This document shows, piece after piece, positions 43,055 to 63,664 of a stretch of DNA of 64,000 nucleotides. The stretch is taken from positions 62,001 to 126,000 of the forward strand of contig JAJZBX010000002.1 in the NCBI GenBank assembly GCA_021846325.1. Direction: 5' to 3'. Position numbers and translations under genes: made by a program. The DNA comes from Actinomycetes bacterium. Its GTDB lineage: Bacteria > Actinomycetota > Acidimicrobiia > Acidimicrobiales > RAAP-2. Below the pieces are notes generated by a model, which had not been told where the DNA came from, did no database searches, and worked only from the letters and a program-made list of their open reading frames with translations. Position 1 is the stretch's first letter. Every line of letters starts with the position of its first letter.

Positions 43055-43537
43055 ATGATTCTCTCTCTTCTTGGTAGCTGGACGAAACGACGGCGCGCAA
43101 GCGAACGACTCGCCCCGGTTCCTGCCCCGGTCGCAGCTGCGGTGAACCTTCGCCACTCGCTGCAACTCCGTCACGTCGACGCGGGCAGCTGTAACGGCTG
43201 TGAGATCGAAATCGGCTCGGTCTTTGGCCCGGTCTATGACGCCGAGCGGATCGGCGCCCGCCTCGTCGCCTCGCCGCGCCACGCCGACGCACTGCTCGTG
43301 ACCGGACCTGTGACCCACAACATGGCCTCGCCGCTCGAGCGGACCTACCTCGCGATGCCCGAGCCACGCCTCGTGATCGCGCTCGGTGACTGCGCGCGCG
43401 ACTGTGGCGTGTTTTCCGGTGGCTACGCCGTCGCCGGCGCGGTCGCCGACGTGGTGCCGGTCGACCTCGAGATACCCGGCTGTCCGCCCCACCCCGACGA
43501 GATCGTCAGCGCGCTGCGGCGCTTTACGAACCGGTGA
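43055..43537 (+). CDS. hycG: NuoB/HycG-like [4Fe-4S] small subunit of Ehr-type complex
   Basis: The 160-residue protein is the complex I NuoB / hydrogenase-4 HyfI homologue that carries the proximal [4Fe-4S] cluster. The four ligands are present: Cys46 and Cys49 in GSCNGCEIEIGSVFGP, Cys113 in GDCARDCGVFSGGY, and Cys143 in EIPGCPPHPDEI. The extra Cys117 is unusual. It should pass electrons from a donor to the large subunit at the membrane. It opens a six-gene operon in which each start overlaps the previous stop; the ATG has only a weak GGGA upstream. The order equals Rv0082-Rv0087 of Mycobacterium tuberculosis as I know it. Confidence 0.92.
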   Translation: MILSLLGSWTKRRRASERLAPVPAPVAAAVNLRHSLQLRHVDAGSCNGCEIEIGSVFGPVYDAERIGARLVASPRHADALLVTGPVTHNMASPLERTYLAMPEPRLVIALGDCARDCGVFSGGYAVAGAVADVVPVDLEIPGCPPHPDEIVSALRRFTNR

Positions 43538-45531
43538 TCGTTCTCGCACTCGTCGCGGGCCTCGGGGTGCTCGCGACGCTCACCGCCCTCGTGCCGCGCG
43601 CGGTGCGCGTCAAACTCGTCGCGGGTCTGCTCGGGCTCGTCGAGATCGTCGGCGGCGCCACGGCGATTCGCGTGCTCGCGACGAACCACGCGATCGTGGG
43701 CCACACGTCGAGTCTGGTGCCCTTCACCGGGGTGCGCATCGACCTGACGCCCCTCGGGGCGCTGTTCACGCTCACGACTGCCGTCGTGGCGATCGCCGCG
43801 ACTATCCACTGGGTCGGCTACCGGCGCCACGCCATGAGTTCGGTTAGCTTGTCGAGTGCCTTCGCTCTCTTCGTGACCAGCTTGCTACTCGTCCCAGCGG
43901 CCGGGGACATCGTGACCTTCCTCGTGCTCTGGGAGGTGATGGCGCTCAGCTCGCTCGTGCTCGTCGCCCACGACCACGCGAAACGAGACGAGACACGCCA
44001 GGCCGCGTGGTGGTACGGGGCGATGACCCAGGGCGGCGCGGCGCTGATCACGCTTGGACTCGTCGTGCTCGGTGGTCACGCCGCGAACCCGAGTTTTTCC
44101 GCCATCGCAGCGAGCGCTTCCCACCTGCCAGCGGCCACCCGCGGGGCGGTCTTTCTCGTGCTTCTCGTCGGCTTTGGCTCGAAGGCCGGGCTCGTGCCCG
44201 CCCACGTCTGGTTACCGCGCGCCCACGCCGAGGCTCCCGCACCCGCCTCGGCCCTGCTCTCGGGGGCGATGGTGAACCTCGGGATCTACGGGATCGTCCT
44301 CGCGCGAACCCTGCTCGGGGTCGGCGCAACCTGGTGGTGGCTCGTCGCGGGCTTCTTCGGCGTGATCTCTGCCCTCTACGGCTCGCTGTACGCCGCGACA
44401 AGCACCGACCTCAAACGGCTCCTCGCCTACTCGACGAGCGACAACATGGGACTCGTCGTGATCGGCCTGTCGGCCTCGGGACTCTTCGCCGCGCATAATG
44501 CGGCCGCCTCGAGCCTGGCCCTCATCGCGACGCTCGTTCTCGTGACGGCCCACGCCCTCTACAAGTCCACCCTCTTCCTCGGGGCGGGCTCGGTGCAGTA
44601 CGCGACCGACGAACGCGACCTCGATCGCCTGGGCGGCCTCGCGCGCACCATGCCCGTAACGACCGCGGTCATCGTGGTCGGCGCACTCGCGGTCGCGGCG
44701 CTACCGCCACTCAACGGCTTTGGCGCCGAGTGGCTCGTCGTCCAGAGCCTCGTGCACGGCCTCTCGGGTGCCGACCCCGTGACGACGGTCGCGACCGCGG
44801 TCTTCGTGGCCGCGCTCGCCCTTACGGGCGGGCTCACCATTGTCGCATTCGTGAAGGCCGTCGGCGTCGGCTTCCTTGGCCGCGCGCGAAGCGAGTCGGC
44901 CGAGCACGCACGCGAGGTGCCCGTCTCGATGCGCATCGCTCCCGCGATCACGGCGGCCGCGTGCGTCGCCCTCGGCGTCGCGCCAGGCCTCGCGATCACC
45001 GCGATCTCTCGCGCGAGCGACGCCGTCGCGCCCAACCGATCGGGACTCACAGCGACGCTGTCGGGCTTTCACCTCCAGGCGCTGCGCAGCGCGGTCGACC
45101 CGCTCGCTCTCGCCCTCGGCGCGGTCGCCGCCGCGCTGGTCGTCGCGGGACTACGCCGCGCGGGCGGACCGCGGACGGGTGCGAAGCTGCGGGTCTTCGA
45201 GCCGTGGGGGTCGGGCCGGGCCGTCACCAGCGCGCGCATGCAGTACACGGCGACGTCCTTCGCCGAGCCGCTCCAGCGGGTCTTTGACGACGTTCTCGCC
45301 CCCCAGCACGACCTCGACGTCAGCCACGTGCTCGAGAGCCGCTACTACGTCGAACGCGTCGCCTATGCGAGCGCCAACGACGACATCGTCGAGCGACGCC
45401 TCTATCGACCGGTGCTCGCTCTCGCGGCGGTGCTCGGGGTACGGGCGCGCGGACTCGCCAACGGCTCGGTGCACCGCTACCTCGCCTACGGCTTCGTCGT
45501 GCTCGTGATCGCACTGGTGGTGGTCTCGTGA
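43534..45531 (+). CDS. hyfB: HyfB/HycC-like proton-translocating membrane subunit
   Basis: The 665-residue antiporter-like protein with about 15 or more hydrophobic segments is the NuoL/NuoM/MrpA homologue of group-4 hydrogenases. Charged residues expected in the proton path are retained: Glu in FLVLWEVMALSS, Lys in GFGSKAGLVPAHVWLPRAHA, Lys in DLKRLLAYSTSDNMG and Lys in AHALYKSTLFLGAG. The last roughly 100 residues form a soluble tail, as in HyfB. It overlaps the small-subunit gene by 4 nt and hycD by 4 nt. Confidence 0.94.
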   Translation: MIVLALVAGLGVLATLTALVPRAVRVKLVAGLLGLVEIVGGATAIRVLATNHAIVGHTSSLVPFTGVRIDLTPLGALFTLTTAVVAIAATIHWVGYRRHAMSSVSLSSAFALFVTSLLLVPAAGDIVTFLVLWEVMALSSLVLVAHDHAKRDETRQAAWWYGAMTQGGAALITLGLVVLGGHAANPSFSAIAASASHLPAATRGAVFLVLLVGFGSKAGLVPAHVWLPRAHAEAPAPASALLSGAMVNLGIYGIVLARTLLGVGATWWWLVAGFFGVISALYGSLYAATSTDLKRLLAYSTSDNMGLVVIGLSASGLFAAHNAAASSLALIATLVLVTAHALYKSTLFLGAGSVQYATDERDLDRLGGLARTMPVTTAVIVVGALAVAALPPLNGFGAEWLVVQSLVHGLSGADPVTTVATAVFVAALALTGGLTIVAFVKAVGVGFLGRARSESAEHAREVPVSMRIAPAITAAACVALGVAPGLAITAISRASDAVAPNRSGLTATLSGFHLQALRSAVDPLALALGAVAAALVVAGLRRAGGPRTGAKLRVFEPWGSGRAVTSARMQYTATSFAEPLQRVFDDVLAPQHDLDVSHVLESRYYVERVAYASANDDIVERRLYRPVLALAAVLGVRARGLANGSVHRYLAYGFVVLVIALVVVS

Positions 45532-46475
45532 ACCTCGCGTCGCTGCTCGTCGGCGCCGTCCAACTCGCGCTCGTCGTCCTCGGCGGGCCGCTGTTGCTCG
45601 GCCTGATGCGCGTCGTGCGAAGTCGCCTCGAGGGTCGCGTCGGCCCCCCGGTCAGTCAACCCTGGCGCGACATCGCTAAGCTCGCCCGCAAGCAGCGCAC
45701 GCGACCCAGCGAGTCCAGCTGGATCTTCGCCGTGGCCCCCCTCGTGCTGGTCGCGACCGCGGCCACCGTTGCCGTGCTCGCGCCACTCGTCACCCTCGCC
45801 CCGCCGCTCGCCAGCTCGACGGACTTCATCGCGGTGATCTTCGTCCTTCTCGTCGGATCGGTCGCCCTCGCGCTCGCCGCGCTTGACACAGCCACCGCCT
45901 TCGGGGGTATGGGGGCGAGTCGGGCGCTCACTATCGGTGCCCTCGTCGAGCCGGCGCTGCTGGTTGCCGTGCTCGCGCTCTCGATGCCGCTGCACTCGAC
46001 GAACCTCATCGCGATCGTCGCCAACGGGTCGCGCCACGCCTCGACGTTGCTCGGACCGAGCCACCTGCTCGCGCTCTGCTCTTTCATCGTCGTCATCCTC
46101 GCCGAGAGTGGCCGGCTGCCGGTGGACAACCCCTCGACGCACCTCGAGCTGACGATGATCTACGAGGCGCTCATCCTCGAATACAGCGGTCCGGACCTCG
46201 CGGCGGTGACCCTGGGCGAATCGATGCGCCTCGCGATCTGGCTAGGACTGTTCGTGAACCTGGTCGCGCCGGTCGGCATCGCCGCGACCGCCCACCCGCT
46301 CGCCCTCGTCGTCGGCCTCGTCGCGCTGACCTTGAAGGTCGTCGTTGTTGGGATCGTCGTCGCGATCTTCGAGGTCACGACCGCGAAGTTGCGCCTCTTC
46401 CGTTTGCCCGAACTGCTCGCCGGGGGCTTCATCCTCGCCGTGCTCGGGGTCGTCACCGGGGCGGTGATGCGGTGA
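45528..46475 (+). CDS. hycD: HycD/HyfC-like (NuoH-like) membrane subunit
   Basis: The 315-residue protein has about 8 hydrophobic segments and is the complex I NuoH homologue that anchors the hydrophilic arm. GRVGPPVSQPWRDIAKLARK in the first loop and the acidic segment LPVDNPSTHLELTMIYEALI, which corresponds to the quinone/coupling region E-rich loop of NuoH, are both intact. Start and stop both overlap their neighbours as GTGA. Confidence 0.94.
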   Translation: MNLASLLVGAVQLALVVLGGPLLLGLMRVVRSRLEGRVGPPVSQPWRDIAKLARKQRTRPSESSWIFAVAPLVLVATAATVAVLAPLVTLAPPLASSTDFIAVIFVLLVGSVALALAALDTATAFGGMGASRALTIGALVEPALLVAVLALSMPLHSTNLIAIVANGSRHASTLLGPSHLLALCSFIVVILAESGRLPVDNPSTHLELTMIYEALILEYSGPDLAAVTLGESMRLAIWLGLFVNLVAPVGIAATAHPLALVVGLVALTLKVVVVGIVVAIFEVTTAKLRLFRLPELLAGGFILAVLGVVTGAVMR

Positions 46476-47122
46476 GCGCCTTCGCCAACTCGCTCGCAAG
46501 CGCCGCCGTTGTCGTCACCGTCGGGGCCGTGGTCGTGCTCTGGCGCCACCGGCTGCGCTCGATCGTGGCCGCCCTCTCGGTCCAAGGCGTGGCACTCGCC
46601 GCGACCGCCGCGCTGCTCGGCATCCACGAGCACGACCGGGGCTTGCTCGCCGTCGCGGGGCTCGTCCTTCTCGTAAAGGCCGCGGTCGTTCCGGGACTGC
46701 TCGCCCGAGTCGTCGCGGCGAACCCCGGGGCCCGCGAGTCCGACCCCCTCGTCAACGTCCCCGCGTCGCTCGTCGTCGCGGGACTGCTCACGCTCGGCGC
46801 CTTCGTCGCGGCCCGACCGATCGTCGCGCTCGTCGGCGGGCCGACGGGCCGACTCGTGCCGCTCGGCCTCGCGACCGTGCTGATCGGCTTCTTCGCCATG
46901 GTGGCGCGGCGGCGCGCGATGAGCCAGGTCGTCGGACTACTGCTGGTGGACAACGGTATCGCCCTCGTCGCCTTTCTCGTCACGAGCGGCGTGCCGGTCA
47001 TTGTCGAGTTCGGCTCGACACTCGACGTGCTCTTCGGGGTCGTCGTGCTGCGGGTGTTACTCGCTCGGCTGAGCGCGGCGGGCTTCAGCGACCTCGACCA
47101 ACTGAGGAGCCTGCACGACTGA
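46472..47122 (+). CDS. hyfE: HyfE-like membrane subunit
   Basis: The 216-residue protein has about 6-7 hydrophobic helices. It is homologous to HyfE, which corresponds to NuoK (and part of NuoJ) in complex I. The helix with VLLVKAAVVPGLLARVV keeps the conserved Lys that follows the NuoK-like Glu, and LLVDNGIALVAFLVTSGVP is the second typical segment. It is the equivalent of mycobacterial HycP by operon position. Confidence 0.88.
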   Translation: MSAFANSLASAAVVVTVGAVVVLWRHRLRSIVAALSVQGVALAATAALLGIHEHDRGLLAVAGLVLLVKAAVVPGLLARVVAANPGARESDPLVNVPASLVVAGLLTLGAFVAARPIVALVGGPTGRLVPLGLATVLIGFFAMVARRRAMSQVVGLLLVDNGIALVAFLVTSGVPVIVEFGSTLDVLFGVVVLRVLLARLSAAGFSDLDQLRSLHD

Positions 47123-48555
47123 TGGTGTACTGGCTCTTCCTCGCTCCTCTCGTAGCGGGACTCGTCGCGATGCTCAGCCCGTGGCGACCGGCCGTCGCCT
47201 GGCTCGGCGCGACTTCGGCTCTGGTCGTGCTCGTCCTCGGCGTGGGGCTCGCGGTTCGCGTCGAGCACTCGGGACCGATTGGTTCGGGCGTGCTGCGCGT
47301 TGACGCGCTCGCGGCCTTCCTCGTGATCGTCATCGGAGCGGTCTCCCTGCTCGCCACGGTGCGAAGCGTCAGCTATCTCTCCAACGAGGTCCAAGCGGGC
47401 CATTCGACGCTTCGCCACGCCGCGCTCTATTCGACCCTTGTCCAGGGCTTTATCGCCGCCATGGTGCTCGCCGTGGTCGCGAACAACCTCGGCGTGCTCT
47501 GGGTCGCGATCGAGGCCACCACGGTCGTGACGACCTTCCTCGTCGGCCACCACCGCACTCCGGCCGCCCTCGAGGCGTCCTGGAAGTACATCATCATCTG
47601 CTCGGTCGGCATCGCCGTCGCGTTCCTCGGCACCACCGTGCTCTACCTCGCCGGCGTTCACGCCCACGTCGCGAACCCGCTCGACTTCACGTCCCTCGCC
47701 GCCCACGCGGCGCTGCTCAACGCGCCGGTCGTGCGCCTCGCCTTCACCTTGATCGTCTTCGGCTACGGCACCAAGGCCGGCCTGGTGCCGCTCTTCAGCT
47801 GGCTGCCCGACGCTCACGGCCAGGCACCCGCGCCGGTGTCGGCGTTGATGTCCGGGGTGCTACTCAGCGTCGCGCTCTCGGCGATTCTGCGCCTGCGGGT
47901 GATCGCCGTCAGCACGCTCGGCCCGACCTTTCCTCGGGTCCTGCTCCTTGCCATCGGTATCGCCACGCTCGTCGTCGCCGCCGTCATGCTCCTCGCCCAA
48001 CGAGACCTCAAGCGACTCCTCGCGTACTCGAGCATGGAACACATGGGGATCATGACAGTCGCCGCCGGCGTCGGCGGACCGCTCGCACTCTCGGGGGTGT
48101 TGTTGCACATCCTCGGCCACGGTCTCGTAAAGGGCGTGCTGTTCCTCGACGCCGGCGAGGTCCTGCGCCTCGAGGGCACGACCCGAATCGCCCGCCTGGG
48201 CGGCTTGCTCGCGCGTCGCCCCGCGCTCGGGGCGATCCTCGCCATCGGACTCGCCGGCCTGCTCGGCCTGCCGCCGTTCTCGATCTTCGTGAGCGAGCTC
48301 ACCATGCTACGCGCCGAGGCCGGCGCCGGCCTGTGGTGGGTGGCTGCCGTCGTGCTCGGCGTCCTCGCCATCATCCTTGCCGCGATCCTCGCCCACGGGC
48401 GAACGATGCTGCTCGGCCCGAGCGAGCAATCAACCCGCAGCCCGGTATCGCTCGTCGCGCCGCTCGGCGTCGCGCTCGGCGCGGCGGTCTGGTTCGGACT
48501 CGTCGCCTGGCCACTCGCCCACCTTCTCAGCCTCGCCGCGGGAATCGTCGCGTGA
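47122..48555 (+). CDS. hyfF: HyfF-like proton-translocating membrane subunit
   Basis: The 477-residue second antiporter-like subunit is homologous to HyfF and NuoN/L. Glu in LWVAIEATTVVTTFLVGHHR, Lys in GYGTKAGLVPLFSWLPDAHG, Lys in DLKRLLAYSSMEHMGIM and Lys in GHGLVKGVLFLDAGE are all present, so a second proton path seems functional. The ATG overlaps the hyfE stop as TGATG. It corresponds to mycobacterial HycQ by order. Confidence 0.93.
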   Translation: MVYWLFLAPLVAGLVAMLSPWRPAVAWLGATSALVVLVLGVGLAVRVEHSGPIGSGVLRVDALAAFLVIVIGAVSLLATVRSVSYLSNEVQAGHSTLRHAALYSTLVQGFIAAMVLAVVANNLGVLWVAIEATTVVTTFLVGHHRTPAALEASWKYIIICSVGIAVAFLGTTVLYLAGVHAHVANPLDFTSLAAHAALLNAPVVRLAFTLIVFGYGTKAGLVPLFSWLPDAHGQAPAPVSALMSGVLLSVALSAILRLRVIAVSTLGPTFPRVLLLAIGIATLVVAAVMLLAQRDLKRLLAYSSMEHMGIMTVAAGVGGPLALSGVLLHILGHGLVKGVLFLDAGEVLRLEGTTRIARLGGLLARRPALGAILAIGLAGLLGLPPFSIFVSELTMLRAEAGAGLWWVAAVVLGVLAIILAAILAHGRTMLLGPSEQSTRSPVSLVAPLGVALGAAVWFGLVAWPLAHLLSLAAGIVA

Positions 48556-50006
48556 GAAGCGAGACCCGCGCGATTCGTACGAGCGAGCTCGTCGACGAGG
48601 CGAGGGGTCTCTTCGCCGCGCAGTTCCGCCTGGCCCTCGTCGCGGGCCAGGACGACGAGCGCGGTCTACGCGTCGTCTACACCTTCCTCGCCCCGCGAGA
48701 ACAACCCGTCGAACTGCACGTCGCGCTCAACCCCGCGACGCGCCGCAGCGTCTCGCTCGCCGCACTCTCGTTCCCGGCCAGCCGCTTTGAGCGCGAGCTC
48801 TTTGACCTCTACGGGATCGAGCCTGAGGGCCATCCCCAGCGTCGCCCGCTCATTCGTCACGCCCACTGGCCCGAGGGGTACCACCCGATGGCGGCGGGCG
48901 CGGGACCGGCCCCGACACTGCACCCCGACGAGGGCGGCTTTCCCTTCATCGCGGTCGAGGGACCGGGCGTCTACGAGATCCCCGTCGGGCCGGTCCACGC
49001 CGGACTGATCGAGCCGGGTCACTTCCGCTTCTCAGTCGTCGGCGAGACGATCCTCAAGATGAAGGCGCGGCTCTGGTTCACCCATAAGGGCATCGAGCGC
49101 CTCGTCGAGGGTAAGACCGTCGAAGACGTCATGGCGATCGCGGAGCGCGTCTCGGGCGACAGCGCCGTCGCGCACGGACTCGCCTACGCACGCGCAATCG
49201 AAGACGCGCTTGAGCTCGTCGTCGCCCCCGGTGTCGAGGCCCGCCGCGCCGTCGCACTCGAGCTCGAGCGGCTCTACAACCACGTGGGGGACCTCGGCGC
49301 GCTCGCGAACGATGTCGGCTTCGGCCTCGCCAACGCGAGGGCCCTCACGCTGCGCGAGCGATTGCTACGCCTAAACGAGCGCGTGAGCGGACACCGGCTG
49401 CTGCGCGGGGTCGTCACCCCGGGCGACGCGCGATTACTCGACCTACCAACGCCACGCGAACTCGACGAGATCGGAGCGCGCGTCGATGAGATCACGTCGA
49501 TGACGCTCGCTCAGTCCATCGTGCTCGACCGATTCACCGGCACCGGGGTTTTGTCACTCGACGCCGCGCGCGATCTCGGCGTGGTCGGCGTAGTCGGACG
49601 CGCCTCGGGCGTCGACCTCGACGCGCGAGGCGACCACCCGGTTGATGGTGTCACGCTCGCTCCGATGGTCCTGCGGTCCAGCGGTGACGTGCTCGCGCGC
49701 TACATGGTGCGCCGCGACGAGGTGACGAGCAGCCTTGCCATTCTGCGATCGTTTACCTCGAGCGGCGGCGGACACCTCGCGGTCATGAGCGGATCGGGCG
49801 TCGGGCTCGGAATCGTCGAGGGGTGGCGCGGACCGGTAATCCACCGGGTCGAACTCGTCGACGGGCGCGTGGCGCGGCTCAAGATCGTTGACCCCTCGTT
49901 CCTCAACTGGCCCGCGGTCGCGATAGCGCTCGTCGACACCATCGTGCCGGACTTTCCCCTCGTGAACAAGAGCTTCAACCTCTCTTACGCCGGCAACGAC
50001 CTGTAG
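48552..50006 (+). CDS. hycE: HycE/HyfG-like large subunit (NuoC-NuoD fusion) lacking NiFe cysteines
   Basis: The 484-residue protein joins a NuoC-like domain (residues about 1-120, LSFPASRFERELFDLYGIEP) to a NuoD-like domain (VGPVHAGLIEPGHFRFSVVG onward). The N-terminal NiFe motif RxCGxCxxxH reads R199-V-S201-G-D-S204-A-V-A-H208, with both cysteines replaced by Ser. The C-terminal DPCxxC site aligns with SFNLSYAGNDL at the very end, giving Ser478 and Gly481 instead of Cys. It cannot bind a normal NiFe centre and no C-terminal processing peptide is present. It resembles Ehr complexes and complex I NuoCD. The GTG at 48552 overlaps the hyfF stop. Confidence 0.94.
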   Translation: MRSETRAIRTSELVDEARGLFAAQFRLALVAGQDDERGLRVVYTFLAPREQPVELHVALNPATRRSVSLAALSFPASRFERELFDLYGIEPEGHPQRRPLIRHAHWPEGYHPMAAGAGPAPTLHPDEGGFPFIAVEGPGVYEIPVGPVHAGLIEPGHFRFSVVGETILKMKARLWFTHKGIERLVEGKTVEDVMAIAERVSGDSAVAHGLAYARAIEDALELVVAPGVEARRAVALELERLYNHVGDLGALANDVGFGLANARALTLRERLLRLNERVSGHRLLRGVVTPGDARLLDLPTPRELDEIGARVDEITSMTLAQSIVLDRFTGTGVLSLDAARDLGVVGVVGRASGVDLDARGDHPVDGVTLAPMVLRSSGDVLARYMVRRDEVTSSLAILRSFTSSGGGHLAVMSGSGVGLGIVEGWRGPVIHRVELVDGRVARLKIVDPSFLNWPAVAIALVDTIVPDFPLVNKSFNLSYAGNDL

Positions 50007-50236: not shown

Positions 50237-50323
50237 TGGTGTCGGAGGCGGGACTTGAACCCGCACGCCCCAAAGGGCACCAGCCCCTCAAGCTGGCGCG
50301 TCTGCCTATTCCGCCACTCCGAC
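50237..50323 (-). tRNA. tRNA-Leu (anticodon GAG), CCA encoded
   Basis: The minus strand from 50323 folds into a class II tRNA: acceptor stem GTCGGAG pairing with CTCCGAC, anticodon stem CCAGC/GCTGG with loop TTGAGGG (anticodon GAG at 50287-50289), long variable arm and the T-arm GCGGGTTCAAGTCCCGC. The discriminator base is A and CCA follows in the DNA (50239-50237). The long variable arm and GAG anticodon identify leucine; it reads CUC and CUU. Confidence 0.96.
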
Positions 50324-52287: not shown

Positions 52288-53058
52288 TTAGCGCCTCTCA
52301 GCGTAGCAGTCATTGCACGCGCTCACGATGGCGGCAAAGGACTCGGCCTTCAGACTCGCGCCGCCAACCAAGAAGCCGTCCACTCGCCCTTCAGTGGCGA
52401 TCTGCGCGGCATTGTCCGCAGTGACCGATCCGCCGTAGAGCACGCGCGCGGCGGCGTAGCCGCAGCGGGCGGCCTCGTCACGGATCTCGTCGACCATCTC
52501 GGCCACCTGCGTCGTCGTCGCGCTCTGACCGGTGCCGATCGCCCAGACCGGTTCGTACGCCACGGTCACCCCGTCGTGGCCCTCGAGGGCACCCAGCGCC
52601 GCGGCGATCTGCGCTCGAACGAACGATCGCTCGTCTCGCGCCTCGCGCGTCGCGAGACTCTCCCCCACGCACAAAATGGCGTCCAGACCACCTCGGCGAA
52701 CCGCGCGCAACGTGCTCGCCACCAACTGATCGTCCATGTGAAAAAGGGACCGACGCTCCGAGTGGCCAACGAGCACCGTGGCCACCCCGAGCCGGCGCAA
52801 CATCGTCACGCTCACCTCACCGGTGAACGCGCCACTCTCGTGGTCGTTGACGTGCTGGGCGGCGACACTAATGAGCGAACGCTCCGCTTCGACCACTGAG
52901 GCAACGCTGCGCAGATCGACGAACGGTGGCGCTACCGTGACGTCGACGTGCTGGGCGGGGCGACTGGCCAGCACGCTCACGAGTTGTTGGGTGAGATGAA
53001 CCGCCTCGACGTGATCGAGGTTCATCTTCCAGTTACCAACGACCAGGCCGCGCGTCAC
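52288..53058 (-). CDS. tpiA: Triosephosphate isomerase
   Basis: The 256-residue enzyme interconverts DHAP and glyceraldehyde 3-phosphate. Lys in VVGNWKMNLDH, His in LVGHSERRSL, Glu in VAYEPVWAIGTGQS and the phosphate-binding YGGSVTADN are all present. The start overlaps the pgk stop by 4 nt. Confidence 0.97.
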   Translation of the reverse strand: MTRGLVVGNWKMNLDHVEAVHLTQQLVSVLASRPAQHVDVTVAPPFVDLRSVASVVEAERSLISVAAQHVNDHESGAFTGEVSVTMLRRLGVATVLVGHSERRSLFHMDDQLVASTLRAVRRGGLDAILCVGESLATREARDERSFVRAQIAAALGALEGHDGVTVAYEPVWAIGTGQSATTTQVAEMVDEIRDEAARCGYAAARVLYGGSVTADNAAQIATEGRVDGFLVGGASLKAESFAAIVSACNDCYAERR

Positions 53059-54191
53059 CGGCTCATCCCCGTTCGCAGGGCTCGCAGACCGGGCAGGTCG
53101 CCGAACTCGACGAGCTCGAGCGATGCGCCACCGCCGGTCGAAACAAAGCTCACCCGCGACTCCAGCCCGAACTCTTGGAGCGCGGCGACCGAGTCGCCCC
53201 CACCGACCACCGAGAGCGCCGGCGACGTCGCTACCGCCTGGGCGATTGCCGCGGTGCCGTCACGGAAGCGGGGATCCTCGAACATTCCGACGGGGCCGTT
53301 CCACAGGATCGTGTGAGCATTCGCGATCACCTCAGTGAACTGGGCCACCGACTGGGGTCCGATGTCGAAGCCCTCGCAGCCGTCGGGCACCTCCGCGCCG
53401 AAGTCGACCGCCGAGTCCGCGCCGCCGCCTCGACCAACTGGGACGCCGTCGGCCAGTCCCCTCGTGTCCACGGGGATGCGAACCTTGCCCGTCGCCAGCA
53501 GCGTTGCGCACTCCTCGAGGTAGGACGCGTCGAACAGTGAAGAGCCGATGCCTCGCCCCTGGGCGGCCTCGAAGGTGTAGGCCATGCCACCGCCGACCAA
53601 CACCACGTCGGCCTTCGCCGCAAGCACCTTGACAAAACCGAGCTTGTCCGCCACCTTCGCGCCACCCACGATGGCGACGAAGGGCCGATCGGGGGCGTCG
53701 AGCAGGTCGAGCAGAAAGGCGACCTCGCGACGAAGATTCGGTCCCGCGGCGCTCGGTACGAGGGTCGGGGGCACCATGATCGACGCGTGCGCCCGGTGCG
53801 AAGCGCCGAATGCCTCGTTGACGTAGAAGTCAACGCCGTCGACGAGCGAGGCGCCAAAGGCTGGATCGTTCAACTCCTCGCCCGGATCAAAGCGCAGGTT
53901 CTCCAGCAACTCGACGCCCGGACAGAGCGCGTCGAGACGGCGTCGTATCGGCTCGACACCGTAGCGTTCGTCCACGCGACCCTTGGGGCGACCGAAGTGC
54001 GTGCAGGCCACGACCGACGCGCCGCGTTCCAATAACGAGGTGAACAGCGGCAGGGCCGCTCGAATCCGAAAGTCGTCGCCGACCTCGAGCCGACCGTCCA
54101 TCTCGACGACCGGGACATTGAAATCCACGCGCACCAGGACCCGGCGACCGCGAACGTCCCAGCCGTCGGGCGTGGGGAGCGACTCGCTCAC
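53055..54191 (-). CDS. pgk: Phosphoglycerate kinase
   Basis: The 378-residue kinase transfers phosphate from 1,3-bisphosphoglycerate to ADP. VLVRVDFNVPV, THFGRPKG, ENLRFDPGEE, the nucleotide-loop AIVGGAKVADKLG and the C-terminal VVGGGDSVAAL are the standard blocks; a few residues are fewer than in the average Pgk. The GTG at 54191 overlaps the gap stop as GTGA; the longer frame above it is within gap. Confidence 0.96.
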   Translation of the reverse strand: MSESLPTPDGWDVRGRRVLVRVDFNVPVVEMDGRLEVGDDFRIRAALPLFTSLLERGASVVACTHFGRPKGRVDERYGVEPIRRRLDALCPGVELLENLRFDPGEELNDPAFGASLVDGVDFYVNEAFGASHRAHASIMVPPTLVPSAAGPNLRREVAFLLDLLDAPDRPFVAIVGGAKVADKLGFVKVLAAKADVVLVGGGMAYTFEAAQGRGIGSSLFDASYLEECATLLATGKVRIPVDTRGLADGVPVGRGGGADSAVDFGAEVPDGCEGFDIGPQSVAQFTEVIANAHTILWNGPVGMFEDPRFRDGTAAIAQAVATSPALSVVGGGDSVAALQEFGLESRVSFVSTGGGASLELVEFGDLPGLRALRTGMSR

Positions 54192-55198
54192 GCCCGCCCG
54201 ACCAGCGCCGTCAGATCGACCAGACGGTTGGCGTAGCCCCACTCGTTGTCGTACCAGCCAAAGACCTTGACGAGGCTCGTCTTGTCATCGATGGGCTGGA
54301 CCATGGTCATCAGCGAGTCGAACGTGCACGAGGCCGGCGAACCCACGATGTCTGAGGAGACGATGTGGTCGTCGCTGTAGTCGACGATCCCCTTCAACGC
54401 GCCATTGGCCGCCACCCGAAACGCGTCGTTGACCTCGTCGACGGTCGTGGCGCGCACGACCGCGGTGAAATCGGTGATGCTGCCGTCTTGAACCGGGACG
54501 CGTAATGACGTGCCGTCGAGGCGACCCTTCATCGCGGCGAGCACCAAACTGGTGGCCCGAGCGGCCCCCGTCGAGGAGGGAACGATGTTGACCGCCGCCG
54601 CGCGCGCGCGGCGCAGATCCTTGTGCGCGACGTCCAGGAGGTTCTGATCGTTGGTGTACGCGTGCACCGTGGTCATGAGCCCACTGCGCACGCCGACGGC
54701 GTCATCGAGGACCTTCACCATTGGCACGAAGCAGTTGGTGGTGCACGAGGCGTTCGAGATGACGTGGTGAACCGCGGCGTCGTAGCTGGCTTCATTGACG
54801 CCCATCACGAACGTCGCGTCGGCGTCGCTCGCCGGTGCCGAGATGATGACCTTGCGGGCCCCGGCGGCCAGGTGCACCGCGGCGGCCTCGCGAGTGGTGA
54901 ATCGGCCGGTCGACTCGATCACCACGTCAATGGCGAGTTCTCGCCAGGCCAGCTGCGTGGGGTCACGCTCGGCGAGGACCCGCACGAAGCGATCCCCGAC
55001 CGTCATGCCGCCTTCGCGCACCGCCACGATCTCGCCAAAGCGCCCCTGGGTCGAGTCGTACTTGAGCAGATGCGCGTTGGTCTCGGGTGAGGTGAGGTCG
55101 TTCAGTGCCACCACCTCGATCTCGGGGTTCGCGAGCGACGCGCGCAAGAATCCTCGCCCGATTCGGCCAAAGCCGTTGATCGCGACACGAATAGGCAT
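54188..55198 (-). CDS. gap: Glyceraldehyde-3-phosphate dehydrogenase, type I
   Basis: The 336-residue NAD-dependent enzyme has INGFGRIGRGFLRA for NAD binding, the active-site Cys in SNASCTTNCFVPM, and the His/Arg sites in VHAYTNDQNL and PSSTGAARATSLVL. Asp in VVALNDLTSPE indicates NAD preference. AAGGAG lies upstream of the ATG. It begins the glycolytic stretch gap-pgk-tpiA. Confidence 0.97.
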   Translation of the reverse strand: MPIRVAINGFGRIGRGFLRASLANPEIEVVALNDLTSPETNAHLLKYDSTQGRFGEIVAVREGGMTVGDRFVRVLAERDPTQLAWRELAIDVVIESTGRFTTREAAAVHLAAGARKVIISAPASDADATFVMGVNEASYDAAVHHVISNASCTTNCFVPMVKVLDDAVGVRSGLMTTVHAYTNDQNLLDVAHKDLRRARAAAVNIVPSSTGAARATSLVLAAMKGRLDGTSLRVPVQDGSITDFTAVVRATTVDEVNDAFRVAANGALKGIVDYSDDHIVSSDIVGSPASCTFDSLMTMVQPIDDKTSLVKVFGWYDNEWGYANRLVDLTALVGRA

Positions 55199-61657: not shown

Positions 61658-63664
61658 TCACTGCCCCTCGAGCATCGAGGGGTCCAGACCCTGTCGCTGC
61701 AGACTGTGCAGCAGATCGCGCAGCGCCGCCGCCTCTTCGAAACGCAGCTCGCGCGCCGCCTCGAGCATCGCGTTCTCGACACGGGTGATCTCACGCGACA
61801 GGTCGTCGGGCAGCGATCCCCCGAGCCGCTCGATCGGCGCGGGCCGCTCGCGGCTCGGTCCGGCGTCGCTGCGCAGCCGATTCAGTATGTCCGCGACGTT
61901 CTTGGTCACCGTCTGGGGCTCGATGCCGTGTTCGAGGTTGTAGGCAACCTGGCGTTCGCGGCGCCGTTGGGTGAGCGAGATCGCGTCACGCATGGAGTCC
62001 GTGAGGCGATCGGCGTACAAGACGGCCGTGCCGTTGGCGTTTCGCGCCGCCCGGCCAATGGTTTGGATCAGGGCGCTGCGCGAACGCAAGAAGCCCTCCT
62101 TGTCCGCGTCCAGGATCGCGACGAGGGACACCTCGGGCAGGTCCAGACCCTCGCGCAGCAAGTTGATGCCGACCAAGACGTCAAACTCACCCAGTCGCAG
62201 GGATCGAAGGATTTCGATCCGCTGAATCGTGTCGATGTCGCTGTGCAGGTACTGCACGCGGTACCCCGCCTTGGTCAAGAACGTGGTGAGGTCCTCCGCC
62301 ATGCGCTTGGTCAGGGTCGTGACCAGGGTTCGCTCACCTCGAGCGATGACCTCGTCGAGCCGAGTGCGCAGATCGTCGATCTGATTACGCGTGGCAACGA
62401 CGTGAACCAGCGGGTCGACGAGCCCCGTCGGGCGGATCACCTGTTCGGCGATCTGGTCGCTCACCTCGTACTCAAAGGGGCCCGGCGTCGCCGACACGAA
62501 GACCATCTGGGGCACCAGATCGATGAATTCGTCGAAGTTGAGCGGGCGGTTGTCCATGGCGCTGGGCAGACGGAACCCGTGCTCGACGAGCGTCTCTTTG
62601 CGCGAGCGGTCACCGGCGTACTGACCGCGCACCTGGGGGATCGCCACGTGAGACTCGTCGACCACGACGAGGTAGTCGTCGGGGAAGTAATCCAGCAGCG
62701 TGTAGGGGCGCTCGCCGGGTCGGCGCCCGTCGAGGTGGGCGGAGTAGTTCTCGATACCCGCACAGACGCCCGTCTGCTCGAGCATCTCCAGGTCGTGCTC
62801 GGTGCGCGAGCGTAGTCGCTGGGCCTCGAGCAGCTTGCCCGCTCGCTCAAAGCTGGCCAGCTGCCCCTGCAGTTCGATCTCGATCGAGCGCGCCGCGCGA
62901 TGCAACGTCTCAGAGCTGGTGGCGTAGTGGGTCGCCGCGAACAGGGTCACGTCATCGACCGTGCCCCGCAGCTCTTGGGTGAGCGGGTTGAAAAAGGTGA
63001 TCGTCTCAATTTCGTCGAAGAAGAAGGAGACGCGTACTGCCTCGTTGCTGTACGCCGGTTGAATCTCCAGCGTGTCACCCTTCATCCGAAAGGTGCCGCG
63101 TTCGAGCACGGTCTCGTTGCGGTGATACTGCATCTCGACGAGTCGGCGCAACAACTGGCGCTGCTCGACTGACTCGCCTCGCGCCAGCGCCAACATTCGA
63201 TCGCGGTATTCGAGCGGGTTGCCCAGCCCGTAGATGCACGACACCGACGCGACCACGATCGTGTCGCGGTGCGTCAGCAACGACGACGTCGCCGCGTGAC
63301 GCAGGCGATCGATCTCCTCGTTGATCGAGCTGTCCTTCTCGATGAAGGTGTCGGTGCGCGGAATATACGCCTCGGGCTGGTAGTAGTCGTAGTACGAGAC
63401 GAAGAACTCCACCCGATTGCGCGGCAGCATGTCACGCAACTCGGACGCCAGTTGCGCGGCGAGCGACTTGTTGGGTTCTAGAATCAGCGTGGGCCGTTGC
63501 ACGCGCTCCACGAGCCAGGCGATGGTCGCCGTCTTGCCGCTGCCGGTGATGCCCTCGAGTGTCTGATAGCGCAGACCGTCTCGCACGCCGCGCGCGAGCA
63601 ACTCAATCGCCTGCGGCTGGTCACCCGCCGGACGAAAGGGCGACTCGACCAGAAACTCGTTCAC
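61658..63664 (-). CDS. uvrB: Excinuclease ABC subunit B
   Basis: The 668-residue DNA helicase-like protein verifies damage. Walker A is [17 protein letters not shown], the beta-hairpin is in [20 protein letters not shown], the DEAD-like box is [11 protein letters not shown], and the helicase motif [10 protein letters not shown] follows. A UVR domain ends the protein ([20 protein letters not shown]). The start overlaps the coaE stop by 4 nt. Confidence 0.98.

Follow-up and report, generated by a model that had tools for sequence, protein, structure and literature searches.

The six-gene operon and its former nickel-iron pocket

The DNA analyzed here is a stretch of 64,000 nucleotides (hereafter the window; positions 62,001 to 126,000 of contig JAJZBX010000002.1) from the actinobacterial assembly GCA_021846325.1, which comprises 2.28 Mb in 97 contigs and is 93.75% complete with 2.61% contamination. 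On its + strand, at 43055-50006, a first-pass annotation had placed an operon coding for HycG-, HyfB-, HycD-, HyfE-, HyfF- and HycE-like proteins, and all six genes were found as described, with neighboring genes overlapping by 1 or 4 bases. To judge from its sequence, the operon encodes the six subunits of a complex of the energy-converting hydrogenase-related (Ehr) type, which is related to group 4 hydrogenases as well as to complex I and has no nickel-iron (NiFe) ligands. Five of the subunits match E. coli Hyf proteins directly and the HyfE-like subunit does so by profile; as to complex I, homologues of NuoB, NuoCD and the antiporter subunits were recognized by direct match, and the NuoH-like anchor by profile.

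The first gene (43055-43537) encodes a small subunit of 160 amino acids (HycG/NuoB-like, EhrS; PF01058, E 5e-31), whose best sequence match in the PDB is 7z0s_G, the E. coli HycG. Alignment with HycG, HyfI and NuoB confirmed its four reported iron-sulfur cysteines, Cys46, Cys49, Cys113 and Cys143 (codons at 43190-43192, 43199-43201, 43391-43393 and 43481-43483), with a CxxC spacing like that of HycG and an extra Cys117 (43403-43405); the tandem-Cys cluster ligand of complex I NuoB is absent. The single [4Fe-4S] cluster predicted at these ligands is the only metal site that can be predicted in the operon.

The next four genes encode the membrane arm. The key Glu and Lys residues that both antiporter-like subunits had been said to keep are present in the HyfB-like protein (43534-45531; 665 amino acids; NCBIfam PRK06521, 491 bits, below the cut-off of 667) as Glu134, Lys217 and Lys344, together with His340, and in the HyfF-like protein (47122-48555; 477 amino acids; PF00361, E 2.3e-52) as Glu131, Lys218 and Glu392, together with His307 and His333; the exception is the position of NuoL Lys399, which is Ala398 in the window HyfB and Ser in E. 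coli HyfB. Between these two genes lie those of a HycD/NuoH-like membrane anchor (45528-46475; 315 amino acids; PF00146, E 3.6e-35) and of a HyfE-like membrane subunit (46472-47122; 216 amino acids; NCBIfam PRK11492, E 1.1e-16, below the cut-off). In the anchor, the E-channel residues HycD Glu199 and Glu201 are replaced by Ser203 and His205, HycD Glu203 is kept as Glu207, and HycD Glu138 is also kept. A triple change of HycD Glu199/201/203 is reported to lower H2 production by 99% (PMC9474812).

The last gene (48552-50006; the mechanically defined open reading frame runs from 48333 and extends back into HyfF) starts with GTG at 48552 and encodes a large subunit of 484 amino acids of the fused NuoC-NuoD/HycE type (EhrL; PF00329 and PF00346). 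Among solved structures, the closest in sequence is E. coli HycE from the formate hydrogenlyase (7z0s_E, E 4.5e-49), which is also matched by the predicted fold (TM-score 0.85 by query length) in a model whose predicted local distance difference test (pLDDT) values fall below 50 at residues 143-162, 171-178 and 479-484, the first and last of these being part of the old active site. Both motifs on which the claim of ligand loss was based could be read in the protein, i.e., RVSGDSAVAH at residues 199-208 (49146-49175), where HycE has RVCGICGFAH, and SFNLSYAGNDL at the C terminus (49971-50003), where HycE has DPCYSC. The two CxxC motifs of group 4 [NiFe] hydrogenases are absent, and alignment with E. 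coli HycE placed Ser201, Ser204, Ser478 and Gly481 at the positions of Cys241, Cys244, Cys531 and Cys534, which bears out the claim that all four ligands are gone. Across 95 aligned large subunits, cysteine at any of the four positions is confined to the two hydrogenases from E. coli and to four further relatives; the refuting case raised with that claim, cysteines present elsewhere in the fold, was not found.

Other residues around the pocket are mixed in their fate. Glu154 (equivalent to HycE Glu193) and canopy Arg426 are retained, canopy Asp529 of HycE is Asn476 in the window (and Asn in 53 of the 54 window-type rows with letters at this position), and the positions of the quinone-binding His and Tyr of complex I, which PMC7684303 names for Nqo4, are occupied by Ile153 and Gly202 (His224 and Tyr273 in E. 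coli NuoCD). Non-protonatable canopy residues are described as substantially impairing quinone reduction by complex I (PMC9474812).

The overall similarity to HycE and a match of the large subunit to PF00374 (residues 179-245; 28.2 bits in the protein search, just above the cut-off of 25.8) would fit a genuine nickel-iron hydrogenase with unusual ligands. However, all four ligands are replaced, this gene is the only PF00374 match in the genome search, where it scores 25.2 bits and falls below the same cut-off, and HypD was not found in the 93.75% complete window genome (the control was positive in 4 of 14 named genomes). This explanation was rejected as having virtually no chance of being correct. 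Over all six frames the window shows no CxxCxxCxxxC motif, and the E. coli proteins tried (Hyc, Hyf, HypA/B and Nuo) matched it only inside the operon, with no match to NuoE, NuoF, NuoG or NuoI, so that the reported absence of a ferredoxin-motif or hyp partner from the window was borne out and, with the missing NiFe ligands and HypD, the assignment to an Ehr-type complex stands.

By its subunit make-up and missing ligands, the operon is predicted to be a new member of the known Ehr family, published Ehr complexes having been compared by description only. It shares with them group 4-like small and large subunits, an antiporter-like membrane arm and the absence of the NiFe cysteines; descriptions of the Geobacter complex name EhrA-1, C, L and S (PMC7894505), and one for Desulfotomaculum ruminis gives a four-Cys EhrL (PMC3569383). 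The window's clade is marked by a small-subunit gene in first place (G-B-D-E-F-L), the motifs SGD(S/T)xxxH and NKSFNLSYAGNDL, and members without iron-sulfur ligands, features that may not differ from those of all published Ehr. In excerpts of the open-access literature we found no mention of iron-sulfur ligand loss in Ehr, and an earlier description in Marreiros 2013, Coppi 2005 or He 2011 is possible. The E. coli Hyc/Hyf complexes provide the best solved relatives of both hydrophilic subunits; the window differs from them in its lack of NiFe ligands, in the replacement of HycD Glu199/Glu201 and in that no HycB-, HycF- or HypA/B-type gene was found beside the operon. Complex I shares homologues of NuoB, NuoCD, the antiporter subunits and the NuoH-like anchor, whereas the window lacks matches to NuoE/F/G/I, the tandem-Cys cluster ligand and the quinone His/Tyr pair.

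Relatives and their iron-sulfur ligands

Relatives were sought by scanning genome contigs, and of 98 loci the best 80 were kept (from Actinomycetota, Acidobacteriota, Omnitrophota and other groups). Of the 85 window-type loci, 70 (69 distinct) have the complete gene set within the fetched stretch, always in the same order. Two trees, with 94 and 95 large subunits, were built from E. coli Hyc/Hyf/Nuo references and the fetched loci. In them the window groups with the metagenome-assembled genome ZJ1.bin29 (L003) inside an actinobacterial clade (SH-aLRT support 100), followed by Acidobacteria (99), and in both trees this clade stands apart from HycE/HyfG and complex I. Thirteen Cryobacterium near-copies and L107 were omitted from both trees; the 94-row tree also left out L006, L007 and one duplicate, and the 95-row tree left out large subunits that were shorter than 330 amino acids or had no small subunit on their stretch, and contains one sequence twice (L073/L073_2). 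Four loci from the window's taxonomic order (L088, L089, L090 and L101) retain the four NiFe cysteines in the same sequence frame and thereby show where the cysteines were lost. These operons (genomes G083, G110, G068 and G019) are Ehr-like and contain no HycF match, and HypD was not found in three of the four genomes (92-94% complete).

The motifs that replaced the cysteines are strongly conserved. Gly202, Asp203, His208 and the C-terminal NKSFxxSYxGxDL are each shared by at least 79 of the 80 large subunits aligned (the window's among them), or by 79 of 79 with letters there. Within the 56 window-type rows of the tree alignment, Ser201 is found in 55, Gly202, Asp203 and His208 in all 56, and Thr or Ser at position 204 in 55; Asn472-Lys-Ser-Phe475, Ser478 and Tyr479 are present in all 54 rows with letters. 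Because the replacement motifs are near-invariant across the aligned large subunits, the conservation indicates that the pocket is under selection for something.

The ligands of the small-subunit cluster vary more. Among 109 distinct small subunits from the fetched loci (after removal of seven genes fetched twice), 75 have all four ligands, 17 have three, all of them from Cryobacterium and lacking the fourth, and 17 have at most one. The cluster-less proteins carry, at the four positions, A/C/A/S in Agromyces bauzanensis, T/C/D/D in three of the L127-L129 type (L137 being a longer stretch of L127), D/T/D/D in the second copy of Cryobacterium sp. Y50, T/D/E/S on an Allomeiothermus silvanus plasmid, and D/E/D/S, D/D/D/S or D/V/D/D in eleven from the window's taxonomic order. 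Parsimony on the 95-row tree requires four changes for these ligand losses, three of them forced by well-supported branches; the position of the plasmid type L117 is unsure because of its long branch. Complex I NuoB proteins fetched from the window's taxonomic order served as a control, and 13 of 13 retain all ligands.

The Agromyces bauzanensis complex belongs to the window's clade and agrees with the window in gene order and pocket residues, and its iron-sulfur ligands are lost. Its small subunit contains one cysteine in total, and the predicted fold still matches MbhJ and HycG; the draft genome yielded no second NuoB-like match at E 0.001, the cluster-less protein being the sole one. Homologues of this small subunit (120 listed of 1477) comprise 63 with four ligands, 40 that have lost only the fourth (now S, N, G, Q, A, D or R) and 17 that have lost two or more.

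The three-ligand Cryobacterium loci bear on a further explanation, a reductase in which a cluster beside a hydrophobic or polar pocket would reduce a substrate such as polysulfide or quinone. The model is the sulfane sulfur reductase MBS of P. furiosus, which is likewise hydrogenase-derived and lacks the quinone ligands, and whose proximal cluster is held by three cysteines (PMC7684303), as could be the case in those 17 loci. However, MBS combines its three-Cys cluster with two pocket cysteines, whereas the window has four cluster ligands and no cysteine at the four pocket positions, and such a reductase is excluded for relatives reduced to one or no ligand. We consider it improbable for the window.

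The membrane arm has been kept in the complexes that lost the cluster. Fifteen cluster-less complexes are represented by both hydrophilic subunits, and the membrane genes were found for 14 of them: in all 14, HyfB Glu134/Lys217/His340/Lys344 and HyfF Glu131/Lys218/His333/Glu392 are unchanged (HyfF His307 in 13), and the anchor retains Glu141 and Glu207, with Asp200 changed to Glu in ten. The large-subunit residues that are invariant in 64 cluster-bearing rows (L040 excluded; one duplicate pair among them) are kept at 57 of 57 positions in L040 and in L137, 55 of 57 in L047_2 and 52 of 57 in L117, the four cluster-less complexes whose pocket is of the window type. On a looser scale (at least 97%), these four retain 69, 68, 67 and 62 of 69 in the order L040, L137, L047_2, L117, as against 67-69 of 69-72 in the eleven controls that bear a cluster. 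This comparison leaves out the eleven cluster-less complexes from the window's taxonomic order because of their different pocket.

Selection was estimated for two sets of relatives. In the 17 Cryobacterium loci that lack ligand four, median omega was 0.12 for HycG and 0.06-0.14 for the other five genes (136 pairs), values that point to strong purifying selection; in the cluster-less pair L103/L104, a single comparison, omega was 0.07-0.28. These values speak to the idea of a decaying hydrogenase operon with little or no function, which would accord with a 2026 paper that calls the Geobacter Ehr already nonfunctional on the ground that it does not oxidize H2 (PMC13194489). The strong purifying selection in Cryobacterium, the near-invariant replacement motifs, the shared order of the 70 complete loci and the occurrence of relatives on plasmids all stand against decay, which is already contradicted for the relatives tested and is very unlikely overall.

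Proposed ion translocation, with or without electron transfer

The first-pass annotation had described an ion-pumping redox complex, a description that is not supported as stated. Since relatives have lost the iron-sulfur ligands repeatedly and kept the ion-channel residues, among them one that belongs to the window's clade and shares its gene order and pocket, redox chemistry cannot be assumed. The pocket, the membrane arm and the gene order behave as a unit that has outlasted the loss of nickel and, in Agromyces, that of iron-sulfur as well, and the conserved function is most simply read as ion translocation. We therefore lean, at slightly less than even chances, toward a metal-optional proton/cation translocator whose basic cycle would run without electron transfer and in which coupling or gating would take place at the old active-site pocket. 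Protons would be moved against another cation or along a gradient by the NuoH-like anchor and both antiporter-like subunits. The former nickel pocket, lined by Ser, Thr, Lys, Tyr and Asn, would bind a small ligand or relay protons, and either event would couple or gate the membrane arm. The single [4Fe-4S] cluster of the window would serve as an accessory for regulation or redox sensing, though it may still transfer electrons.

The action proposed here is modeled by analogy on the Mrp systems, which are cation/proton antiporters built with antiporter-like subunits. Mrp is not known to have NuoH-, NuoB- or NuoCD-like subunits, all of which were found in the window operon. A wider version of the same idea would make the Ehr complexes of this clade complex I relatives freed from redox chemistry, metal-optional ion machines whose hydrogenase head has become a ligand- or proton-operated coupling device; cluster-less versions with no predicted metal site in the operon (those of Agromyces, the L137/Cryobacterium second-copy and the L103/L104 types) would have arisen more than once. 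We hold this wider version a little more tentatively, at somewhat under even chances.

Several observations weigh against a redox-free cycle. The window HycG and 75 of the 109 distinct small subunits hold all four ligands, which argues that something selects for the cluster in most sampled lineages, and the cluster-less lineages may have changed function rather than reveal the basic function of the family. Eleven of the 17 cluster-less small subunits come from complexes of the window's taxonomic order with a different pocket (Glu at 201 and mostly an EASF end). Nine of these eleven, as well as the plasmid type L117, have in the open frame of the cluster-less small subunit a NuoI-like part that retains CP...CxxCxxC, which would suffice for one ferredoxin-type cluster. 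Five of the 11 genomes also encode a cluster-bearing relative, which lacks the NiFe cysteines in G030, G041 and G061 and has them in G068 and G083. The Ehr-type anchor residue His205 is Thr in ten of the 14 cluster-less complexes, 10 of 81 scanned loci contain a ferredoxin-type motif in one frame or another, though not at a common place, and the changed E-channel and canopy residues of the window might reflect weak coupling instead of redox-free coupling.

Because the window keeps all four iron-sulfur ligands, the main rival is a minimal redox pump, in which a soluble donor of low potential, probably ferredoxin that a 2-oxoacid:ferredoxin oxidoreductase has reduced, would pass electrons directly to the single [4Fe-4S] cluster, an acceptor in the old pocket would be reduced and protons would be pumped. 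The ligand counts just given, the retention of the proton-donor-like Glu154 and of canopy Arg426, and two POR-domain matches in the window genome are consistent with it, and redox-coupled charge translocation is suspected for Ehr in PMC6349859. On the other side, the quinone ligands are absent and the canopy Asp is Asn476, the pocket and channel are retained in cluster-less relatives, and the flanks of the 85 window-type loci (83 distinct) revealed no subunit for electron input. These flanks, which extend to 9 kb at most in the main set and are often shorter, gave zero matches to HycF, HyfH, NuoI, HycB, HypA, HypB and HycI; a weak HyfA match (L013) and a NuoF match (L062), 5.7 and 8.7 kb from the large-subunit start, are the sole two among these loci. 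POR matches occur in 104 of the 118 genomes of the window's taxonomic order and for this reason neither support nor exclude a ferredoxin donor. Overall, the redox pump is a serious possibility to which we assign clearly less than an even chance.

Two candidate donors were set aside. A KorAB-type 2-oxoacid:ferredoxin oxidoreductase proved uninformative as a co-occurring donor, given the same POR distribution. The only FdhF/YdeP-family oxidoreductase of the window genome lies on contig 70 (C70), with no link to the operon seen, and a formate dehydrogenase partner is kept as a lead only; the genome-wide molybdopterin search gave three matches, all on contigs other than the window's, and no FdhF search was aimed at the window.

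Ehr complexes are described as lacking the NiFe ligands, with a function called unknown or only suspected (PMC6349859, PMC7304191, PMC10284858, PMC10432482 and PMC7894505), and Ehr-like operons are found in numerous bacteria from soil and water as well as on plasmids. The relatives described here form a natural series, from four NiFe cysteines through an iron-sulfur cluster only and three ligands to one ligand or none, with key ion-channel residues nearly fixed, which makes the question of a redox-free translocator testable. If the cluster-less versions do still transport ions, members of the complex I superfamily can translocate protons without electron transfer, which would bear directly on the coupling between the two halves of complex I.

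Distribution, neighboring genes and additional copies

Large-subunit relatives were found in 22 of the 118 genomes of the window's taxonomic order at E <1e-25, eight of these at E <1e-130. Within the window's genus the distribution is patchy: G069, G104, G437, G442, G475 and G480 gave no small-subunit match at E 1e-35, and G347 and G493 carry the operon, though their operons do not group with that of the window in the tree. Among 72,556 plasmid records, 89 contain a relative at E <1e-20, not all of which need be Ehr. Seven plasmid regions were fetched, six of them annotated there, and matches to the six genes were found in all seven. The six-gene module is present on the plasmids L113 (Rhodococcus plasmid pRZP3), L115, L116, L117, L118 and L119, and transposase genes are annotated within about 11 kb of it in L113, L115 and L118.

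An ArsR-like open reading frame (read by eye, with no profile) stands beside the operon in 52 of 81 stretches, those of the window, L003 and L004 not included. It forms the only cluster seen beside the operon in more than one genus, the other clusters seen being Cryobacterium synteny, shadow open reading frames or broad families such as ABC ATPases, and conserved neighbors were rejected as candidate partners. Downstream of the window operon, a tRNA-Leu gene lies on the opposite strand at 50237-50323, and genes for triosephosphate isomerase and phosphoglycerate kinase occupy 52288-54242 on the same opposite strand. NuoD-like and NuoB-like matches of the window genome are located on contig 7.

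The NuoI-like parts mentioned above belong to L091, L093_2, L094, L095_2, L097-L100, L102 and L117; the other half of the ferredoxin motif is lost in them, and the whole part is gone in L103/L104. In L093 and L095 (genomes G041 and G061), cluster-bearing and cluster-less Ehr operons adjoin on one contig, convergently in L093 and in tandem in L095. Finally, contig 32 of the window assembly (G000; locus L131, 3763 bases) carries another small-subunit gene together with the beginning of a HyfB gene, which share 94% and 87% identity with their counterparts in the window, with a response-regulator-like open reading frame upstream as in L003; candidate explanations for this locus are a strain variant, a second copy or contamination.

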